Shown piece after piece: positions 11,086 through 46,892 of a stretch of DNA of 64,000 nucleotides. The position numbers and the translations under genes are program-made. Numbering within the stretch: the stretch's first letter is position 1; each line of letters begins with the position of its first letter. This stretch comes from Massilia soli (lineage in GTDB: Bacteria > Pseudomonadota > Gammaproteobacteria > Burkholderiales > Burkholderiaceae_D). A model generated the notes under the pieces. It had not been told where the DNA came from. It ran no database searches and was given only the letters and a program-made list of their open reading frames with translations. The DNA is taken from contig NZ_JAFBIL020000007.1 of assembly GCF_016809835.1 (NCBI RefSeq), positions 1-64,000 of the forward strand. Direction: 5' to 3'.

Positions 11086-11112
11086 TAAAGTCGGGTTGAA
11101 TCCTGCCGATAA
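11086..11112 (+). promoter_or_regulatory. Sigma-28 promoter of fliD
   Basis: TAAAGTCG at 11086-11093, an 11-base spacer and a perfect GCCGATAA at 11105-11112. This matches the FliA consensus almost exactly. It lies 34 bases before the fliD start and should drive fliD-fliS-fliT and perhaps the genes beyond. Confidence 0.85.
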
Positions 11113-23597: not shown

Positions 23598-24092
23598 ATG
23601 AAAGCTGATCCGAAAGCAGATGCGGCAGCAGTTCCAAAATCTTCTCCGAAGAAGCTGATCATCATCATCGTTGTTGCCGTCCTGGTATTGATTGCCGGCG
23701 GCGGCGGCGCGGCCTGGTACTTCATGCAAGGCGGCGCCGACGGCAAGGCCGCGGTCAAGGAAGCTGCGCCGGCGGAGCCGCCAGTGTACGTGCCGCTTGA
23801 AAAGTTTGTCGTGAACCTGCAACCTGAAGACGGCGAGCAATATCTTCAGATCCAGTTTACGCTGCAGGTGCCGACGCTGGAACAGGTCGACCTGATCAAG
23901 GCCAACATGCCGAAGATCCAGAGCCGGGTGCTGCTGCTGCTGTCGTCCAAGCGCGCCTCGGAACTGAATACGCCGGAAGGCAAGCGCCAGCTGTCGAGCG
24001 AGATCATCGCCGCGGTCAACGAGCCGTTCGTCGACAAGGGCGCACCGCAGCTGGTGTCCGACGTGCTGTACACCAGTTTCATCATTCAGTAA
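23598..24092 (+). CDS. fliL: Flagellar basal body-associated protein FliL
   Basis: A roughly 164-residue single-pass inner-membrane protein that supports stator function around the rotor. A Lys-rich N terminus leads to one transmembrane helix (LIIIIVVAVLVLIAGG), then a periplasmic domain with VPLEKFVVNLQ and YLQIQFTLQV, ending VSDVLYTSFIIQ as in the family. The start is uncertain: ATG at 23598 or an in-frame TTG at 23580, neither with a good ribosome site. It opens the fliLMNOPQR run. Confidence 0.92.
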   Translation: MKADPKADAAAVPKSSPKKLIIIIVVAVLVLIAGGGGAAWYFMQGGADGKAAVKEAAPAEPPVYVPLEKFVVNLQPEDGEQYLQIQFTLQVPTLEQVDLIKANMPKIQSRVLLLLSSKRASELNTPEGKRQLSSEIIAAVNEPFVDKGAPQLVSDVLYTSFIIQ

Positions 24093-24105
24093 CAGTCAGC
24101 AGAAC

Positions 24106-25086
24106 ATGGCCGATAATTTCCTCTCACAGGAAGAAGTCGATGCCCTCCTGAAGGGCGTCAACGGCGATCAGGACGACGCCGACGCGCCCGAGGAAGCCTC
24201 AGGTGTACGCACGTACAACCTGGCGACCCAGGAGCGCATCGTACGCGGCCGCATGCCGACGCTCGAAATCATCAACGAGCGCTTCGCGCGCTTGCTGCGC
24301 GTGGGCCTGTTCAACTTCATCCGCCGCAGCGCCGAGGTGTCGGTGGGCTCGGTGCGGGTATCGAAGTACAGTGAATTCATCCGCAACCTGGTGGTGCCGA
24401 CCAACCTGAACCTGGTGCACATGAAGCCGCTGCGCGGCACCGGCCTGATCGTGTTCGATCCAGGCCTGGTGTTTTTGCTGGTGGACAATCTGTTCGGCGG
24501 CGACGGGCGCTTCCACACCCGCGTCGAAGGACGCGATTTCACCCAGACCGAGCAGCGCATCATCCTGCGCATCCTCGATATCGTGTTCGAGGCCTACACC
24601 AAGTCGTGGGAACCGGTCTACCCGGTCGAGTTCGAATATATCCGTTCAGAGATGAACACCCAGTTTGCCAACATCGCCACGCCGAACGAGGTGGTGGTGT
24701 CGTCCACGTTTACGGTCGAGCTTGGCTCGGTGAGCGGCCAGATCCACATCTGCATGCCCTACTCGATGATCGAGCCGATCCGCGACACCCTGACCTCCAG
24801 CCTGCAGGGCGAGGCGCTGGAAGTGGACAAGCGCTGGATCCGCCTGATGACCCAGCAGATCCAGATCGCCGAAGTGGAACTGGTGGCGACCCTCGGCCAC
24901 GGCCGCGCCTCCTTCGACGAAATTTTGAACATGAAGGTGGGCGACATCATTCCGCTCAACGTCAACGAACAGATTGAAGCGACGGTCGACGGCGTGCCGG
25001 TGATGGAATGCACGTATGGCGTGCTGAACGGCCAGTACGCGCTCAAGGTCGAGAAGCTGCTGGCCAATTCAGACAACTTGAAGTAA
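24106..25086 (+). CDS. fliM: Flagellar motor switch protein FliM
   Basis: A 326-residue C-ring protein that binds phospho-CheY and changes rotation direction. The N-terminal peptide NFLSQEEVDALLKGV is the CheY-binding segment. The middle CheC-like domain contains LNLVHMKPLRGTGLIVFDP and VDNLFGGDGR. The C-terminal SpoA domain (VGDIIPLNVNEQIEATVDG) pairs with FliN. Although no chemotaxis genes lie in the window, the intact CheY-binding peptide suggests they are elsewhere. Confidence 0.97.
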   Translation: MADNFLSQEEVDALLKGVNGDQDDADAPEEASGVRTYNLATQERIVRGRMPTLEIINERFARLLRVGLFNFIRRSAEVSVGSVRVSKYSEFIRNLVVPTNLNLVHMKPLRGTGLIVFDPGLVFLLVDNLFGGDGRFHTRVEGRDFTQTEQRIILRILDIVFEAYTKSWEPVYPVEFEYIRSEMNTQFANIATPNEVVVSSTFTVELGSVSGQIHICMPYSMIEPIRDTLTSSLQGEALEVDKRWIRLMTQQIQIAEVELVATLGHGRASFDEILNMKVGDIIPLNVNEQIEATVDGVPVMECTYGVLNGQYALKVEKLLANSDNLK

Positions 25087-40880: not shown

Positions 40881-40907
40881 TAAAGTTTACCGGTAAAGCG
40901 CCGTAAC
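40881..40907 (+). promoter_or_regulatory. Sigma-28 promoter of flgMN
   Basis: TAAAGTTT at 40881-40888 is a perfect -35 box. An 11-base spacer and GCCGTAAC at 40900-40907 follow. It lies 48 bases before the flgM start and gives FliA-dependent production of its own antagonist. Confidence 0.85.
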
Positions 40908-40955: not shown

Positions 40956-41261
40956 GTGAAAATCAACGATACACTTAAAAACAACACCTCCCTGCCAGTG
41001 TCCAATGCGCCTTCTTCGGGCGCCAAAGGGACTGACAAGGCAGCGCCAATGTCGACGCCGGCGGCGACCGACAATGTGCGCCTGTCGTCGCAGGGACAAG
41101 CCCTGGCCAGCGTGGCCGGCAGCGGTGCTGTGTTCGACACCAAGAAAGTCGAACGCATCAAGCTCGCCATCGCGGATGGCCAGTTCCAGGTAAATTCTGA
41201 AAAAGTAGCGGACGGCTTGCTGGAAACAGTGCGCGACCTGCTGCATTCTCGCAAACGCTAA
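40956..41261 (+). CDS. flgM: Anti-sigma-28 factor FlgM
   Basis: A 101-residue protein that holds FliA inactive until the hook is complete, when it is exported. The C-terminal FliA-binding part reads FDTKKVERIKLAIADGQFQV and NSEKVADGLLETVRDLL. The N terminus is disordered and polar, as in the family. The start is GTG at 40956, with GAGAAGGA upstream; there is no in-frame ATG before the conserved part except in the middle. It is paired with flgN. Confidence 0.94.
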   Translation: MKINDTLKNNTSLPVSNAPSSGAKGTDKAAPMSTPAATDNVRLSSQGQALASVAGSGAVFDTKKVERIKLAIADGQFQVNSEKVADGLLETVRDLLHSRKR

Positions 41262-41268
41262 AGACCCC

Positions 41269-41736
41269 ATGGCAAGCCCACTCGATACCCTGCACGACGA
41301 ACAACAGCTGGTTTCTTCCCTGCTCGACCTGATGCAACAGGAACAGCAATGCCTGATCGGCGCGGATATCGAGAGCCTGAACGCCATCACCCCGCGCAAG
41401 GCGGAGCTGATGAACGAACTGGCGGTGCTGGCCAACCGGCGCCACGAAGCGCTCGCCCTGGCCGGATTCCCGGCCGAAGAAACCGGAATGCAGGAGTGGG
41501 TCGCGCAGCCGGCCAATGGCGGCGCCCTTGCGGCCTGGAACGAGCTGCTGGCGCGTACCCGCGAAGCCAAGGAAGTCAACCGCGTCAATGGCATGCTCAT
41601 CAACAAACAGATGACGCACAATCAGGGTTTGCTCAACGCCATGCGCCAGCCGGCCAACGCCGGCGATGCCGCAGTCTACGGGCCGACTGGCCAGACCGCG
41701 CCCGGCGGCCCGTCGCGGCGCTTCGTGGTCGGTTAA
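41269..41736 (+). CDS. flgN: Flagellar export chaperone FlgN
   Basis: A 155-residue helical chaperone for FlgK and FlgL. The sequence is helix-rich, with LHDEQQLVSSLLDLMQQEQQ and ITPRKAELMNELAVLANRRH. The C-terminal VNRVNGMLINKQMTHNQG precedes a Gly/Pro tail ending in ALRQ-like low complexity. It lies seven bases after flgM and is followed by a hairpin terminator. Confidence 0.92.
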   Translation: MASPLDTLHDEQQLVSSLLDLMQQEQQCLIGADIESLNAITPRKAELMNELAVLANRRHEALALAGFPAEETGMQEWVAQPANGGALAAWNELLARTREAKEVNRVNGMLINKQMTHNQGLLNAMRQPANAGDAAVYGPTGQTAPGGPSRRFVVG

Positions 41737-41757
41737 ACGCCACGCCCCGGGATAGTG

Positions 41758-41784
41758 AACGGCCGCAAGCTGCGGCCGTTTTGC
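41758..41784 (+). terminator. Terminator of flgMN
   Basis: AACGGCCGCA at 41758-41767 pairs with TGCGGCCGTT at 41771-41780 across a 3-base loop. TTTTG overlaps the 3' arm. The T-tract is short but the stem is strong. Confidence 0.75.
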
Positions 41785-42205
41785 ATTGCCCCTGCTGTTT
41801 GACATATCTCAACAGCACGCAGGATTGGCCTACATCCCGGTTTACTTAGCGGTCCGAAACTGTGACCATGGCTGTTCAGTTCGCCACGACGCCCCCCCCC
41901 TGCAAGACGCCCCCTCCGGATATGTTCAGAATTTAACATTCTGTTGTCACACTCATCAGTTCATTTCCGCACGTACAAGCTTGATTTCAAAGAAGAAAAA
42001 TAAAATTTCACTTAAGAAACATGCCGATGCAAATACGTGGAGTATTCGCCGAAATGACACAATTTCCAACTATTCAATGTTTACATGGAAACCGCAAAGT
42101 GTGAGGATGGTTCCGTTGAGTTCGCCAATTTCAGCGCAGCACTCGCGCCTTCCGGCATCGACGACCTCGGCGATCAAAATAAGAAACCTTACTCGGAGAA
42201 ACTAC
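41785..42205. other. AT-rich non-coding stretch before the metallopeptidase gene
   Basis: About 420 bases without a convincing gene. It contains a run of nine C at 41892-41900. An unusually AT-rich part from about 41930 to 42090 contrasts with the GC-rich surroundings. A possible weak promoter, TTGATT at 41981 and TAAAAT at 42001 with a 14-base spacer, is the only signal I can name. The AT-richness may mean a silenced or horizontally acquired control region. An open frame runs through it in phase with the peptidase but lacks protein-like character. Confidence 0.5.
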
Positions 42206-43294
42206 ATGAACTGGAACCATTTGGTCAAGGCAGGGGTGTCCATCGTTGCCGTTGCGGCGTGCTTCTCAGCACAGGCCGCGTCGAACGGCGTGACTGTCAG
42301 CATTGCGCCGGAAAAAAGCTCGCTCAACAAGGATGACGACGTGTTCGTCCGCGTCACCATCACCAACACCTCGGCCACCCCGCAATATATCCTCAAGTGG
42401 CACACGCCGTTCGACGGCGTCGAGGAGGCATTGTTCGACGTCACGCGCGACGGCGCGCCGGTGCCTTACCTGGGGGCGCACTACAAGCGCCCTGCCCCGA
42501 CCGCCAAGGATTACTACCTGCTCAAGCCGGGCGCTTCGCACACCGCCAAGGTGGAGCTGACCGGCCTGTACGACATGAGCGTCACGGGCGACTACACGAT
42601 CCGCTATCACTCGGCGGCGATGAACATATTCTCGAACCTCCAGGGCGGCGTCGCCAAAACCACGGCGCGCGGTGTGGACGAGATCGAATCGGCGCCGGTC
42701 GGCCTGTGGATCAATGGCCGGCTGGCACGCGGCACCGTGGTCGGCAGCCCGTTCGAGCTGCAAAAGGCGCCGTCGCAGCCGGGCACCGCGTCGCTGGGCT
42801 TCAGCAACTGCACCGCATCGCAGCAGTCCACCATCACCTCGGCGATCACGGCGGCCAAGACGATGGCCAATGGCAGCGTCACCTACCTGGCCAACGGCAC
42901 GGCCGGCGCCCGCTACACCAAGTGGTTCGGCGCCTACACGGCGGCCCGCTATGCCACCGTGCAGTCGAATTTCAACGCCATCAAGGATGGCTTCGACAAC
43001 AAGCCGGTAGTGGTCGATTGCAAGTGCAAGCAGAACTACTACGCCTACGTGTATCCAACCCAGCCTTACAAGATCTACGTCTGCAAGGCGTTCTGGACCG
43101 CGCCGATGACCGGCACCGATTCCAAGGGCGGCACCCTGATCCACGAGATGAGCCACTTCAACGCGGTCGCCGGCACGGATGACTGGGTGTATGGCCAGTC
43201 GGGCGCGGCCAGCCTGGCGATCAGCGATCCTGCCAAGGCCATCGACAACGCAGACAGTCACGAATACTTTGGCGAAAATACGCCAGCGTTGTAG
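42206..43294 (+). CDS. Secreted aspzincin metallopeptidase (M35-like, peptidyl-Lys/deuterolysin type)
   Basis: A 362-residue exported protein. A signal peptide (AGVSIVAVAACFSAQAA) leads to an N-terminal beta-rich domain of about 130 residues, then a catalytic domain. The zinc motif HEMSH is at residues 313-317, followed by GTDDWVYG (323-330). This is the aspzincin GTxDxxYG with Asp326 as third ligand and matches Lys-specific and deuterolysin-type peptidases. Conserved Cys residues (NCTA, CKCKQNYYAYV, KIYVCKAF) suggest disulfides. The ATG at 42206 has GGAGAA upstream. It is predicted to act outside the cytoplasm. The N domain is homologous to the small protein encoded convergently at 43366-43839. 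Confidence 0.88.
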   Translation: MNWNHLVKAGVSIVAVAACFSAQAASNGVTVSIAPEKSSLNKDDDVFVRVTITNTSATPQYILKWHTPFDGVEEALFDVTRDGAPVPYLGAHYKRPAPTAKDYYLLKPGASHTAKVELTGLYDMSVTGDYTIRYHSAAMNIFSNLQGGVAKTTARGVDEIESAPVGLWINGRLARGTVVGSPFELQKAPSQPGTASLGFSNCTASQQSTITSAITAAKTMANGSVTYLANGTAGARYTKWFGAYTAARYATVQSNFNAIKDGFDNKPVVVDCKCKQNYYAYVYPTQPYKIYVCKAFWTAPMTGTDSKGGTLIHEMSHFNAVAGTDDWVYGQSGAASLAISDPAKAIDNADSHEYFGENTPAL

Positions 43295-43327
43295 TCAAGT
43301 AAGGGCAAACGGAAAAGCCTGAACCAG

Positions 43328-43347
43328 GGCCGGCAGCAATGCCGGCC
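43328..43347. terminator. Hairpin between convergent genes
   Basis: GGCCGGCA at 43328-43335 and TGCCGGCC at 43340-43347 form a stem with a GCAA tetraloop. The T-tract is weak. It probably serves the peptidase gene and perhaps the opposing gene. Confidence 0.65.
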
Positions 43348-43365
43348 TTGTCCATTCTGGCGCGC

Positions 43366-43839
43366 CTATTTGCGGAAAACGAAGCTGACCGGCATCACCG
43401 GCAGCCCCCGCGGCGCGTCGATCTGTGCGAGATCGTTGATGACGCTGCCCGGGAAGGCCAGCGTGTAGGCATGTTCGCCCGCCAGGAAATCGTAGCTCGA
43501 AGTGATGTCGATGCTGTTGCTTGCGGTGGCGCCCGGTTTAACCTGGAGGTAATCGTCTTTGGTAATCGGACCGCGCTTGACCTTGCGGCCGATGTACGTG
43601 ATGTTCTTGCCGGTCCTGGCGTCGCGGATGTCGAACACCGGTGCGATCAGTTCGTCGTCCTGGTAGATCGCCTTCGGCACATGGACCGGGTGGGTGCCGT
43701 GGTTCGCGACGGCCAGCCGCACGACGACCTTGCCACCGGCCGTGTCGACAGCTACCTGCTCGTTCACGCCTGTCATTTTGCCTCCAGCCAGGGCCGACGC
43801 GATCACCAGCGCCAGCGCGGCGAACATTGCCTGTTTCAC
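43366..43839 (-). CDS. Small secreted protein homologous to the N-terminal domain of the neighbouring metallopeptidase
   Basis: A 157-residue protein with a signal peptide (QAMFAALALVIASALAG). Its body matches the peptidase's N domain. FDIRDARTGKNITYIGRKVK and TKDDYLQVKPGA here correspond to FDVTRDGAPVPYLGAHYK and AKDYYLLKPGA there, and YDFLAGEHAYTLAF to YDMSVTGDYTIRY. No catalytic motif is present. The start is GTG at 43839 with AAGGAG upstream. Only 11 bases separate it from the motD stop, so it is probably cotranscribed with fliA-motC-motD. A propeptide-like inhibitor or folding aid is a reasonable guess, but the function is not established. Confidence 0.8.
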   Translation of the reverse strand: MKQAMFAALALVIASALAGGKMTGVNEQVAVDTAGGKVVVRLAVANHGTHPVHVPKAIYQDDELIAPVFDIRDARTGKNITYIGRKVKRGPITKDDYLQVKPGATASNSIDITSSYDFLAGEHAYTLAFPGSVINDLAQIDAPRGLPVMPVSFVFRK

Positions 43840-43850
43840 TGATTGTCTCC

Positions 43851-44585
43851 TTAGCGCGGCTCCGCGAAGGACGACATGATGGTGACGGCAACCCGGCGGT
43901 TGCGGTTGCGCCCTTCCGGCGTGTCGTTCAGCGCGATCGGCACATTGGCCGCGTGCCCGACAGCGGTCAGGCGCGCCGGCGGCATGCCGCTGTCGATGAA
44001 CAAGCGTACCACGCTGCTGGCGCGGGCGGCGGACAGCTCCCAGTTCGACGGGAACACCGAATTGCTGATCGGTATCGAGTCGGTGTGGCCTTCCACCTGC
44101 ACCGCGTGGTTATCGTCGGCCAGCAGCTGGGCAATCGCGTACAGCGGCTGGCGCGCCTCGGGGGTGATGGCGGCGTCGGCCGGCGCGAACAGCGCGTTGG
44201 CATTGATGTCGACCGTCACGCCGCGTCCGGTCTGGGTGACGCTGACCTTGCCGGCCTTGACCAGCGGCGACAAGGTGGTATCGAGCTTTTTTGCCAGCAA
44301 GCCCAGGCGCGACTGTTCGCGCCGGATCGCTTCCAGCTTGCGGCGCGCGGCGATGTTGTCCATCGGGATCAGCGGCTCGATGGCGGCGCTGCCGGGGGGG
44401 GCTTTTTCCTTGCGCCCGAAGGCTTCGCCAACCGATTCCGAAAACACCTTGTACTTGCCCTGGTTGACCACCGAGATCGCGTACATCACCACGAAGAACG
44501 CGAACAGCAAGGTGATGAAATCGGCGTACGAGATCAGCCAGCGCTCGTGGTTCTCGTTGTCCTCCTGGTATTTCTTGCGCGCCAT
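43851..44585 (-). CDS. motD: Flagellar stator protein MotD (MotB family)
   Basis: A 244-residue peptidoglycan-anchored stator subunit. The N terminus has WLISYADFITLLFAFFVVMY, in which the Asp of the YADF motif is the proton-binding residue in the single transmembrane helix. A plug/linker follows. The C-terminal OmpA-like domain has VQVEGHTDSIPI, NWELSAARASSVVRLFIDSG and RNRRVAVTI. The ATG at 44585 is preferred. A run of eight C (coding strand) at 44394-44401 lies within the linker. It is coupled to motC, with ten bases between them. Confidence 0.93.
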   Translation of the reverse strand: MARKKYQEDNENHERWLISYADFITLLFAFFVVMYAISVVNQGKYKVFSESVGEAFGRKEKAPPGSAAIEPLIPMDNIAARRKLEAIRREQSRLGLLAKKLDTTLSPLVKAGKVSVTQTGRGVTVDINANALFAPADAAITPEARQPLYAIAQLLADDNHAVQVEGHTDSIPISNSVFPSNWELSAARASSVVRLFIDSGMPPARLTAVGHAANVPIALNDTPEGRNRNRRVAVTIMSSFAEPR

Positions 44586-44594
44586 GGGCAGCAA

Positions 44595-45341
44595 TCAGGG
44601 ACGCGACAGCAGGCTGGCGACGCGCTCTTCCACCACGCGCGAATGGTCTCCGCTGGCAATGTCGTAGAACACTTCGGTCAGGATTTCGTATTGCGTGACG
44701 GTCTCGGCGACGATGCCCTTGAGCTTGTTACCGATCGGATAGAAGAACAGGTTGGCCAAACCGACACCGTAGATCGTGGAGACGAACGCCACCGCGATGC
44801 CGCTGCCCAGCCGCGACGGATCGCTGAGGTTTTCCATCACGTGGATCAGGCCGAGCACGGCGCCGAGGATGCCGATGGTCGGCGCGTAGCCGGCCGCCGA
44901 TTCCCAGATCTTGGCCGCCTGGCGCTGGCTGAATTCGTAGGCCGTCAGTTCAATTTCAAGGATGCCGCGCAGCTTGGTCGGGTGGATGCCGTCGATTACC
45001 AGGCGCAAGCCCTTCTGGATGAACTTGTCGCTGGTACCCTGCATATATTGTTCGAGCGACAGCAGGCCGTCGCGGCGCGCCTGCGAACTCCAGGCGGTGA
45101 TTTCGCGCGCCAGCTTGATGCGCCGGCTCGGCGGCGGCTTGAATACCCAGCGCAGCATGCGCAGGCCGCGCATGAAGGTGGCCGCTTCGTTTTGCAGCAG
45201 CACGGCGCCAAAGGTGCCGACCACCACGATGGAAAACGCCGCCGGCTGTACCAGCGATGCAAACTTTCCGCCATCCATGCTGTGGCCGAGCAGCAGCCCG
45301 GCCAGCGCGATGACGACACCCGCTATGCTGGCCCAGTCCAC
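44595..45341 (-). CDS. motC: Flagellar stator protein MotC (MotA family)
   Basis: A 248-residue inner-membrane stator subunit with four transmembrane segments. The first helix is WASIAGVVIALAGLLLGHSM. AGYAPTIGILGAVLGLIHVM and GIAVAFVSTIYGVGLANLFF form the conserved pore pair with essential Pro residues. The cytoplasmic loop has the charged torque-generating region. MotC-MotD rather than MotA-MotB is chosen because the pair follows fliA, as in Pseudomonas. It overlaps fliA by 19 bases. Confidence 0.92.
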   Translation of the reverse strand: MDWASIAGVVIALAGLLLGHSMDGGKFASLVQPAAFSIVVVGTFGAVLLQNEAATFMRGLRMLRWVFKPPPSRRIKLAREITAWSSQARRDGLLSLEQYMQGTSDKFIQKGLRLVIDGIHPTKLRGILEIELTAYEFSQRQAAKIWESAAGYAPTIGILGAVLGLIHVMENLSDPSRLGSGIAVAFVSTIYGVGLANLFFYPIGNKLKGIVAETVTQYEILTEVFYDIASGDHSRVVEERVASLLSRP

Positions 45342-46051
45342 GCCTGCTCCCGTAGTTGCGCGCGCAGCCGCGACACCGCCTGGGTGTGCAGCTGCGAAAC
45401 GCGCGATTCAGATACGCCCATGACGGCGCCGATTTCCTTCAGGTTCAATTCTTCTTCGTAGTACAGGCTCATCAGGATCTTTTCGCGCGGCGGCAAGCCG
45501 TCGATCGCATCGATCACGGCCTGGCGGAAGTCGCCTTCCATCAGCGTGGCGAGCGGATCGGCGTCGTCAACCGCATAGCGGTCGAGGAAGCTGTCGCTGC
45601 CTTCCTCGGAATGGAAATCTTCATAGTAGACCAGCTGGTGGCCGCCGCCGTCGGACAGCATGTCCTGGTACTCGGCCAGCGACATCTTCATGTACTTGGC
45701 CACTTCCGACTCGGTCGGCGGCTGGCCCAGCTTCTGCTGCAGGGTGGCCATCGCGGTTTCGATCTTGCGCATGTTCTGGCGCATCGAGCGCGGCAGCCAG
45801 TCGCTGTTGCGCAGCTCGTCGAGCATCGCCCCGCGGATGCGCAGCACCGCGTAGGTTTCGAATTGCGCGCCGTGGGTTTCTTCGTAGCGGCTGATCGCGT
45901 CCAGCAGGCCGATCATGCCGGCCTGAACCAGGTCATCGACTTCCACACTTGGCGGCAGCTTGGCCTTCATGTGGTGGGCAAGACGCTTTACCAACGGCAT
46001 GTGCTCCGTCAGTAAATGGTTCTTGTCCGCTTTGCCTTTGACCGTGTACAT
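45323..46051 (-). CDS. fliA: Flagellar sigma factor FliA (sigma-28)
   Basis: A 242-residue sigma factor for late flagellar genes. Region 2 contains VDDLVQAGMIGLLDAISRYE and RIRGAMLDELRNSDWLPRSM. Region 3 has LGQPPTESEVAKYMKMSLAE. Region 4 has LPPREKILMSLYYEEELNLK and SESRVSQLHTQAVSRLRAQL. The ATG at 46051 fits the family start. Its target promoters in this window are at fliC, fliD, flgK and flgM; FlgM (40956) is its antagonist. Confidence 0.97.
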   Translation of the reverse strand: MYTVKGKADKNHLLTEHMPLVKRLAHHMKAKLPPSVEVDDLVQAGMIGLLDAISRYEETHGAQFETYAVLRIRGAMLDELRNSDWLPRSMRQNMRKIETAMATLQQKLGQPPTESEVAKYMKMSLAEYQDMLSDGGGHQLVYYEDFHSEEGSDSFLDRYAVDDADPLATLMEGDFRQAVIDAIDGLPPREKILMSLYYEEELNLKEIGAVMGVSESRVSQLHTQAVSRLRAQLREQAWTGPA

Positions 46052-46064
46052 GTTCAATTGTTTG

Positions 46065-46892
46065 TTAAGCGCCCAGTTGGATATTGCCGCCGGTCCGGCC
46101 AAGTTGTGGCATGCCAGGCAGCGCGAAGCGGCCCGCCAGGCGGCGGAACGCCACCGATGCCCCGGCCAACGGGAACGCATCCACCACCGAACGGCCCAGC
46201 CGCGCTGCGCGGTGCAGGTGTTCGTCGGCGGGCACCGAGCCCATCGACGTCAGCTGCACTGCCAGGTAACGGCTTGCCGCGGTTGCCATATTATCGTATA
46301 CCACCTTCGCCTCTGTCTCAGAAGCATTAGTTACCAGGATTCCGAACGGGCGGCGGCCATATTGCTGGGACAAGCGCTTGATCAGGGAGTAGGCATTGGT
46401 GATCGATTCGGCGCTGGTGGACACTTGCACCACGATCTCGGATTCGGCCATCACCGGCAACGGGAAACTGTCGTCGCTGGCCAGCTCGCCATCGACCATG
46501 ACGATGCCGGACTGCTTGACCAGCACGTCGAAGGTCTTGGCCACGCGGCGCGCGTCATTGGCGTCGTAGCGCACGCCGTGCAGCATGGTGACCACGCCGA
46601 AACCCTGCGGGGCCTGGTGAATCACCTGGTTCAGCGCGCATTCCTGGCGCGCCACCGACAGCAGGCTGTGCTCGCTGTCGATGCCGAGGCGGCGCGTCAC
46701 GCCGTAGCCGCGCTCGCAGGCGTCGACCAGCAGCACGTCGCTGCCGGCGTGGGCCAGCGAGGCGCCCAGGTTGACCAGCATGGCGCCCTTGTCGTCTTGC
46801 TCGGTGGCGGACAGGAAAGTGACGATGCGCGGCTTGGGACCGGCCAGCATGCGCCGCAGGCCTTCGGCCTGGTCGAAGTCGAAGTTAGCCAA
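46065..46892 (-). CDS. flhG: Flagellar number regulator FlhG/FleN-like (degenerate MinD-type ATPase)
   Basis: A 275-residue MinD/ParA-fold protein next to flhF. The N-terminal motif DQAEGLRRML is the conserved FlhG activation segment. The deviant Walker A motif expected after FLSA (KGGxGKT) is missing: residues 29-38 read ATEQDDKGAM. LLVDACERG replaces the usual LLxDAD. The fold is otherwise kept (VNLGASLAHAGSDVLLVD, IVMVDGELASDD, ILVTNASETEAK). A TTG start at 46892 with GAGGTG upstream overlaps the flhF stop; an ATG at 46919 is possible. Related proteins limit flagellar number at the pole. Loss of the P-loop suggests altered or absent ATPase activity. Confidence 0.85.
   Translation of the reverse strand: MANFDFDQAEGLRRMLAGPKPRIVTFLSATEQDDKGAMLVNLGASLAHAGSDVLLVDACERGYGVTRRLGIDSEHSLLSVARQECALNQVIHQAPQGFGVVTMLHGVRYDANDARRVAKTFDVLVKQSGIVMVDGELASDDSFPLPVMAESEIVVQVSTSAESITNAYSLIKRLSQQYGRRPFGILVTNASETEAKVVYDNMATAASRYLAVQLTSMGSVPADEHLHRAARLGRSVVDAFPLAGASVAFRRLAGRFALPGMPQLGRTGGNIQLGA

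Follow-up and report, generated by a model that had tools for sequence, protein, structure and literature searches.

Why would a bacterium encode a secreted peptidase and, directly beside it, a separate copy of the domain that precedes the catalytic part of that peptidase? The question is raised by a 64,000-nt stretch of the Massilia soli genome (contig NZ_JAFBIL020000007.1, positions 1 to 64,000; hereafter the window), in which a flagellar gene cluster holds two convergent genes flanked by flgN and motD. The larger gene (42206..43294, + strand) encodes a 362-aa AsaP1-type peptidase of the aspzincin (M35) kind with a signal peptide, a prodomain, and a catalytic domain. The smaller gene (43366..43839, − strand) encodes a stand-alone, prodomain-like protein of 157 aa. 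Comparative sequence analysis suggests that the small protein, once secreted, probably acts in trans as an inhibitor (immunity protein) of the adjacent peptidase and is a homologue of the inhibitory propeptide of that enzyme.

The peptidase gene runs from an ATG at 42206 to a stop at 43294, and its product begins with a Sec-type signal peptide as judged by eye. Residues 229–357 matched Pfam family PF14521 (Aspzincin_M35; E 1e-46, 159.3 bits against a cut-off of 30). The best solved relative was AsaP1 (PDB 2x3a/2x3b; phmmer E about 1e-91 over residues 42–361), and comparison of the predicted peptidase model with 2x3b gave a TMt of 0.90. Residues H313, E314, H317, T324, D326, and Y329 were unvarying across 52 aligned peptidases, in agreement with the HEXXH and GTxxDxxYG motifs; the zinc-binding and catalytic motif HEMSH (residues 313–317), assigned by motif and alignment, lies at 43142..43156 (+). 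The first-pass annotation, made from the DNA letters alone, had described an N-terminal domain ahead of the catalytic part, and these matches bear it out: by sequence, the large gene is an AsaP1-type aspzincin peptidase gene with an N-terminal AsaP1-like prodomain, a beta domain of residues about 25–140 (42278..42625, +). The nearest named peptidases among the matches listed were those of Massilia agrisoli (91% identity) and M. polaris (88%). No VgrG or PAAR match was found in the window peptidase.

The small gene starts with a GTG at 43839 and runs down to 43366. Its product carries a signal peptide (by eye), and no catalytic motif was found in its 157 residues, as the first-pass annotation had read it. 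The alignment with the N-terminal domain of the peptidase that the annotation had reported was recovered by BLASTP (28% identity over 104 aa, E 3e-10 in a single comparison). AsaP1 was the sole PDB sequence match below E 1 for the small protein (phmmer E 1.1e-4). An AlphaFold2 model built from a 54-sequence alignment was confident and all-beta (pLDDT 89.8, pTM 0.80), and a Foldseek search of the PDB with this model returned AsaP1 chains at ranks 1–4 (E 2e-7 to 2e-6, TM 0.60–0.65), so that the structure-based comparison proposed by the annotation also pointed to AsaP1. Rank 5 was the bacterial proteinase inhibitor 3isy, at E 7.5e-4 but with a root mean square deviation (rmsd) of 8.0. Because the sequence matches and the predicted fold agree, we regard the homology as real: the small protein is homologous to the N-terminal domain of the peptidase and is encoded alone.

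Beyond weak matches, Pfam and NCBIfam placed none of the small proteins compared with them. The window protein gave one Pfam match below the cut-off (E 0.075) and zero NCBIfam matches, with no qualifying match to the known inhibitor families I9, I29, or BsuPI in Pfam or NCBIfam (MEROPS was not searched). For 54 stand-alone members, the best Pfam E-value was 0.0014 (DUF4232), among 25 of 27 families listed. A strict lipoprotein-signal pattern was present in 3/67 and 3/56 small proteins; because matches were few and the pattern may miss some, we make no general claim that these are lipoproteins.

To describe the conservation of the pair, we defined a strong small-gene match as E below 1e-18 and an AsaP1-type peptidase as a PF14521 match above 100 bits. 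At the genus level, the small protein and a second, weaker match fitting the peptidase prodomain were found in 16 of 17 genomes; the exception (G011) had neither. At the family level, strong small-gene matches came from 53 of 294 genomes, 51 of which also encoded an AsaP1-type peptidase; this is the co-occurrence that the first-pass annotation had suggested looking for. The 51 include G013 (48% complete), though its peptidase frame contains a stop. Many breaks interrupt the peptidase frame and several flagellar frames of this genome (locus L049), a pattern that resembles an error of sequencing or assembly more than gene decay. A strong small gene without an AsaP1-type peptidase was found in G104 and G120, and G148 and G246 gave weaker small-gene matches and no PF14521 match.

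The arrangement of the two genes differed among groups. For the 56 small genes in the fetched family regions, the nearest full-length peptidase was convergent in 47, divergent in 1, and absent from the region in 8; the 48 resulting spacings had a median of 84–91 nt and a maximum of 10.7 kb. Many Massilia genomes (L066, L068, L082, L143, and others) carry two or three tandem peptidase genes beside a single small gene. We also collected 77 named peptidase loci from the best 80 of 448 matched stretches, and a small gene was present at 61 of them (54 convergent, 6 downstream on the same strand, 1 divergent). Searches with the small-protein alignment matched 13 of 369 genomes at the class level, 19 of 300 at the order level, and 11 of 398 at the phylum level; many of these searches' matches were to the prodomains of peptidases. 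Of the 14 matched order-level genomes from outside the family, nine showed the peptidase followed by the small gene on the same strand (L229, L231–L237, and L242). Aeromonas caviae, a congener of the species that makes AsaP1, and Pseudoalteromonas xiamenensis showed the same order (104.7 and 95.8 bits, respectively, with the broad model), and in families f145 and f125 the small gene stands ahead of the peptidase. The pair is thus convergent in Oxalobacteraceae and a same-strand operon elsewhere. In total, homologues were distributed over Oxalobacteraceae, other Burkholderiales, Shewanella, Rheinheimera, Aeromonas, Pseudoalteromonas, Cronobacter, and Escherichia coli (135 of 5426 genomes). The plasmid set contained no match for the window small protein or for the G664 homologue described below. 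Genome G306 (L190/L201/L248) was excluded for masked bases and a broken frame, and a seeming loss of the prodomain in L192 and L193 was discarded as an artefact of short loci.

Next, we focused on the residues shared by the two proteins. Four alignments were used: A1 (43 of the 57 family small proteins), A2 (38 peptidases), A3 (53 of the 61 small proteins of the named loci plus that of the window), and A4 (the 52 peptidases above). G84, K88, and R89 were the only invariant residues in the 54 stand-alone proteins of A3, and their prodomain counterparts, G90, K94, and R95, were among the invariant residues of A4. The Lys94-Arg95 pair of the prodomain loop (Gly-x-x-x-Lys-Arg; pair at 42485..42490, +; invariant in 52/52) is thus equivalent to Lys88-Arg89 of the small protein (43573..43578, −). 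The eight proteins left out of A3 (L110, L113, L114, L128, L162, L166, L173, and L180) were near-copies or had short starts, and L180 is without the Lys; they are retained in the wider count of named and distant stand-alone proteins, in which the Lys was kept in 66 of 69 and the Arg in 69 of 69. The wider prodomain count gave Lys in 106/107 and Arg in 107/107. Among the family small proteins, each residue was kept in 55 of 57. Both loop-less family proteins (L086 and L099) come from genomes without an AsaP1-type peptidase match, as do only four of the 57 rows in all; the chance of both losses falling there is 6/1596, a figure calculated by hand from small numbers and after the fact.

The alignments also suggest what the loop might do. 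A hand count along the alignments placed Lys88 of the small protein opposite Lys85 of AsaP1. The peptidase's catalytic domain aligned with the Grifola peptidyl-Lys metalloendopeptidase. Asp350 of the peptidase (43253..43255, +) aligned without gaps to residue 154 of the Grifola enzyme, which we take to be its S1′ lysine-binding residue (Hori et al. 2001). Enzymes of this peptidyl-Lys kind cut before lysine, according to excerpts of PMC11985622. The simplest model leads to a precise prediction, that of a Lys-Arg loop in a Lys-specific S1′ pocket. The prodomain would present Lys94 to the S1′ pocket (Asp350) of its own enzyme, and the small protein would bind the catalytic domain in the manner of the propeptide and insert Lys88 into the same pocket in trans. 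The AsaP1 propeptide reportedly inhibits intramolecularly (Bogdanovic et al. 2016). The docked small protein would block any mature enzyme that stays in the periplasm or comes back into it, which would protect the producer along with its kin. A separate inhibitor would be useful wherever mature enzyme might attack the envelope of the producer.

Homologues of the small protein were also found in the immunity position of the type VI secretion system (T6SS). Three matches do not neighbour an AsaP1-type enzyme. In G731, the homologue lies directly behind a gene for VgrG with a C-terminal M35 domain (67 bits); in G664, directly behind the gene of a PAAR-M35 protein (68 bits). The G1126 homologue (46 bits) is preceded by a short M35 gene, which itself follows a vgrG gene. 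A profile built from the Oxalobacteraceae rows of A1 only, for which the best of 2000 shuffles scored 6.2 bits, matched the gene behind VgrG-M35 on Cronobacter pESA3 (43.8 bits) and the gene behind the PAAR-VgrG-M35 set of E. coli Nissle 1917 (36.0 bits). The immunity slot is thus occupied by homologues at L256, L257, L258, L307, and L312, but not by the window gene. The examined neighbours of these homologues were T6SS genes, and the M35 open reading frames (ORFs) at the same loci gave no prodomain match. The Nissle 1917 homologue (L312:6962-7645, +) is annotated as 'hypothetical protein' and is a distant family member; it is the one present in 135 of 5426 E. coli genomes. In one E. coli strain (hit H33), the L312-type match is broken into two parts, which flank an IS1 transposase. 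The Cronobacter gene used as a DNA query gave zero matches in E. coli. Among the members checked, the T6SS-slot homologues were likewise without a Pfam or NCBIfam family beyond weak matches.

The immunity proteins of T6SS M35 toxins have been described as periplasmic, lipoprotein, or membrane-anchored, and PA0261 as binding the M35 domain of VgrG2b and neutralising it in the periplasm (PMC6899460, in part); the terms AsaP1 and propeptide were absent from that article. An E. coli M35 toxin is likewise reported to be neutralised by its own immunity protein (PMC10673891, in part). Among the roles that the first-pass annotation had offered for the small protein, that of a trans-acting inhibitor is the one favoured by these comparisons, because the pairing is conserved in several gene orders, the Lys-Arg loop is kept, and homologues occupy T6SS immunity slots.

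Several findings weigh against this interpretation or narrow it. Of the 65 family genomes that encode an AsaP1-type peptidase, 14 gave no strong match to the small gene, one of which (G110) carries its peptidase at a contig end, and 16 of the 77 named loci show no small gene, some of these being short contigs or contig ends; the latter loci include Myxococcaceae, Iodobacter, Shewanella chilikensis, and Shewanella indica. At 20 loci of distant, non-AsaP1 M35 peptidases (17 of 19 family places and 3 of 4 class places, with G282, G074, and G460 left out), no credible neighbouring homologue was found (lowest E-values 0.67 for the broad model and 0.75 for the prodomain model). Because these 20 loci gave none, the small protein would be specific to some M35 lineages and not a general M35 partner. 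The loop does not follow the peptidase strictly either. It is retained in genomes G104 and G246, in which no AsaP1-type peptidase was found (L071 and L100 are the two loop-bearing family rows from such genomes); M. kyonggiensis (L180) has lost the Lys despite an adjacent peptidase, and L192 and L194 are also without it. The Lys-Arg pair is missing from the slot homologues of Cronobacter, E. coli, and G1126, which means that not every member can work by the loop mechanism.

Two alternatives keep the small protein tied to peptidases. It could be a trans-acting chaperone (foldase) that aids periplasmic folding of the catalytic domain in the manner of a cis propeptide; subtilase propeptides often both fold and inhibit (PMC6993865, in part), and the M35 ORFs without a prodomain at the T6SS-slot loci would fit such a helper. 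The 52 peptidases of A4, however, retain their own prodomain, and the 14 family genomes and the named lineages just listed have the peptidase without a strong small gene. As the peptidases keep their prodomain and several lineages manage without the small gene, the chaperone role, which the first-pass annotation had held open, is weakened, and we consider it unlikely. Slightly less likely again is an orphan or kin-directed immunity, in which the small protein would mainly guard against foreign peptidases or T6SS M35 effectors and not against the producer's own enzyme. The T6SS-slot homologues and the small genes of G104, G120, G148, and G246 would suit it, whereas the resident peptidase in 51 of 53 genomes and the decay of the loop in two of those four peptidase-less genomes argue against it.

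The remaining alternatives separate the small protein from the active site. As a motility accessory it would work with MotC and MotD, the peptidase being a chance neighbour. The gene does follow motD (43851..44582, −; NF006541 above the cut-off) with a gap of 11 nt that contains GGAG, so the close start and the ribosome site noted in the first-pass annotation stand, and in genera g1, g4, and g18 it is directly behind motD. The gap measured 11–14 nt in the window and in the two relatives nearest to it; across all relatives it ranged from −4 to 617 nt. Co-transcription with motD in the window strain is possible. In genera g40 (10 genomes) and g6 (1), however, the pair lies away from flagellar genes in 11/11 genomes: tblastn searches with 12 flagellar proteins of the window gave zero matches within several kb on each side of the pair, and all 11 genomes carry a strong motD match elsewhere. 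The small gene not being retained behind motD in these genomes, a motility role was rejected as a candidate. This separation, together with the T6SS neighbourhoods of the slot homologues, makes such a role very improbable and lends no support to the earlier suggestion that the protein is made when the cell is motile. Equally improbable is that the small protein, instead of inhibiting the active site, competes (or serves as a decoy) for some third molecule to which the prodomain binds, such as a sorting factor or a substrate. A shared fold and loop would also suit a shared partner; no such partner was noticed, no systematic search for one having been made, and the neighbours of the pair in L125 (g40) were unrelated genes, namely a PAS-domain hybrid kinase, an FtsW/RodA-like protein, and PhaC. 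Inhibition of the resident peptidase is the function that we propose.

The proposed inhibitor can be compared with several known systems. The propeptide of AsaP1 (A. salmonicida, PDB 2x3a-c) resembles the small protein in sequence and predicted fold; the small protein, in contrast, is encoded separately, secreted, and without a catalytic domain. The stand-alone inhibitors of subtilases (MEROPS I9: POIA1, yeast PBI2, and AtSPI-1; also TgMIC5 and SUB1-ProM) are likewise small, separate products with a propeptide fold, and Plasmodium SUB1-ProM is stand-alone, propeptide-like, and encoded next to subtilase genes (excerpts of PMC6993865). These proteins target subtilisins, whereas the window protein goes with bacterial zinc aspzincins and has the Lys-Arg loop. 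In the Tpe-Tpi pairs (VgrG2b-PA0261, ACIAD0053-0054, and E. coli M35-PAR), the immunity gene lies directly behind the M35 domain, the slot that homologues of the small protein fill. The partner in the window is instead a secreted zymogen with its own prodomain and not T6SS cargo, and the comparison made here with PA0261/Tpi1 is one of gene position. The Bacillus inhibitor IPI/BsuPI (PDB 3isy), an Ig-like, all-beta proteinase inhibitor (PMC3901451, in part) of subtilisin, shares an all-beta likeness at the Foldseek rank and rmsd given above, and its Pfam family was not among the 25 of 27 families listed for the 54 stand-alone members.

For subtilases, stand-alone inhibitors of the propeptide-like kind are already known, and so are immunity proteins against T6SS metallopeptidases. 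The seemingly new element is a family of stand-alone aspzincin propeptides that is paired with secreted enzymes in several Pseudomonadota groups and also present in T6SS immunity slots; no stand-alone aspzincin propeptide was found in literature titles and abstract openings among the matches listed, most subscription journals being outside their scope. These proteins, which found no family in Pfam or NCBIfam, are thereby given a likely function, and propeptides are proposed as the source of some immunity proteins of T6SS metallopeptidase effectors. More tentatively, the zymogen propeptides of secreted aspzincins, the stand-alone proteins, and the Tpe-Tpi-kind immunity proteins could all be one family in which cis catch and trans antidote have interconverted. 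We would hold this wider idea more readily were PA0261 not described, in parts of PMC6560169, as homologous to Tsi6 and as an immunity protein also to the lipase Tle3, a second toxin. If the idea is true, one and the same control part would serve both a secreted protease, digestive or toxic, and a weapon used between bacteria. A natural inhibitor of AsaP1-type peptidases would also be of practical interest, because a fish pathogen has AsaP1 among its virulence factors (PMC12924839, in part).

To examine the relationship between the two forms, we built phylogenetic trees, first with 94 rows and then, after thinning to 66 rows, as two careful trees, each with 126–128 columns. In the careful trees, the stand-alone proteins required 4 and 3 changes, and none of 200 bootstrap trees (0%) united them in one clade. 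Applied to the first set, the AU test did not reject a single clade of stand-alone proteins (p 0.18), and for this reason we do not claim repeated origin; trees of this length cannot settle how often prodomain and stand-alone forms were exchanged. A tree that grouped the T6SS-slot with the Massilia proteins (100/100) was not relied on because of long branches. Prodomain-like stretches were also seen in larger ORFs at L240:175-1845 (+) and L243:1039-1842 (+), with no M35 match in the fetched locus, and the domain may have other uses there.

The non-coding sequence around the pair showed further features. An AT-rich block upstream of the peptidase gene (41930..42135) contains runs identical in four Massilia species, and the GC content of 0.39 at 41900–42099, against 0.57–0.69 in 200-nt windows of 41000–41899 and 42200–44499, agrees with the AT-rich upstream region remarked on in the first-pass annotation. 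The block is likely a regulatory region. Between the convergent stop codons, an 11-bp GC-rich hairpin (43325..43350; z −1.66, weak, and not in the terminator-scan list) is a possible shared bidirectional terminator. Within 41650–46300, no sigma-70-like promoter was found, and three terminator-like sites were predicted against 4.7 in shuffles, none of them between the peptidase and the small gene.

No FliA-type promoter was found at either gene within the mismatch limits used. FliA-like matches to the consensus were found in the window at 11086, 20736, 24090, 30765, 32399, 40881, and 51808, and those at 11086-11112, 24090-24116, and 40881-40907 are sigma-28 (FliA)-like sites on the + strand. 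The site at 11086-11112 is an exact fit to a shorter consensus (TAAA, 15 nt, GCCGATAA), and the site at 40881-40907 lies just upstream of flgM.

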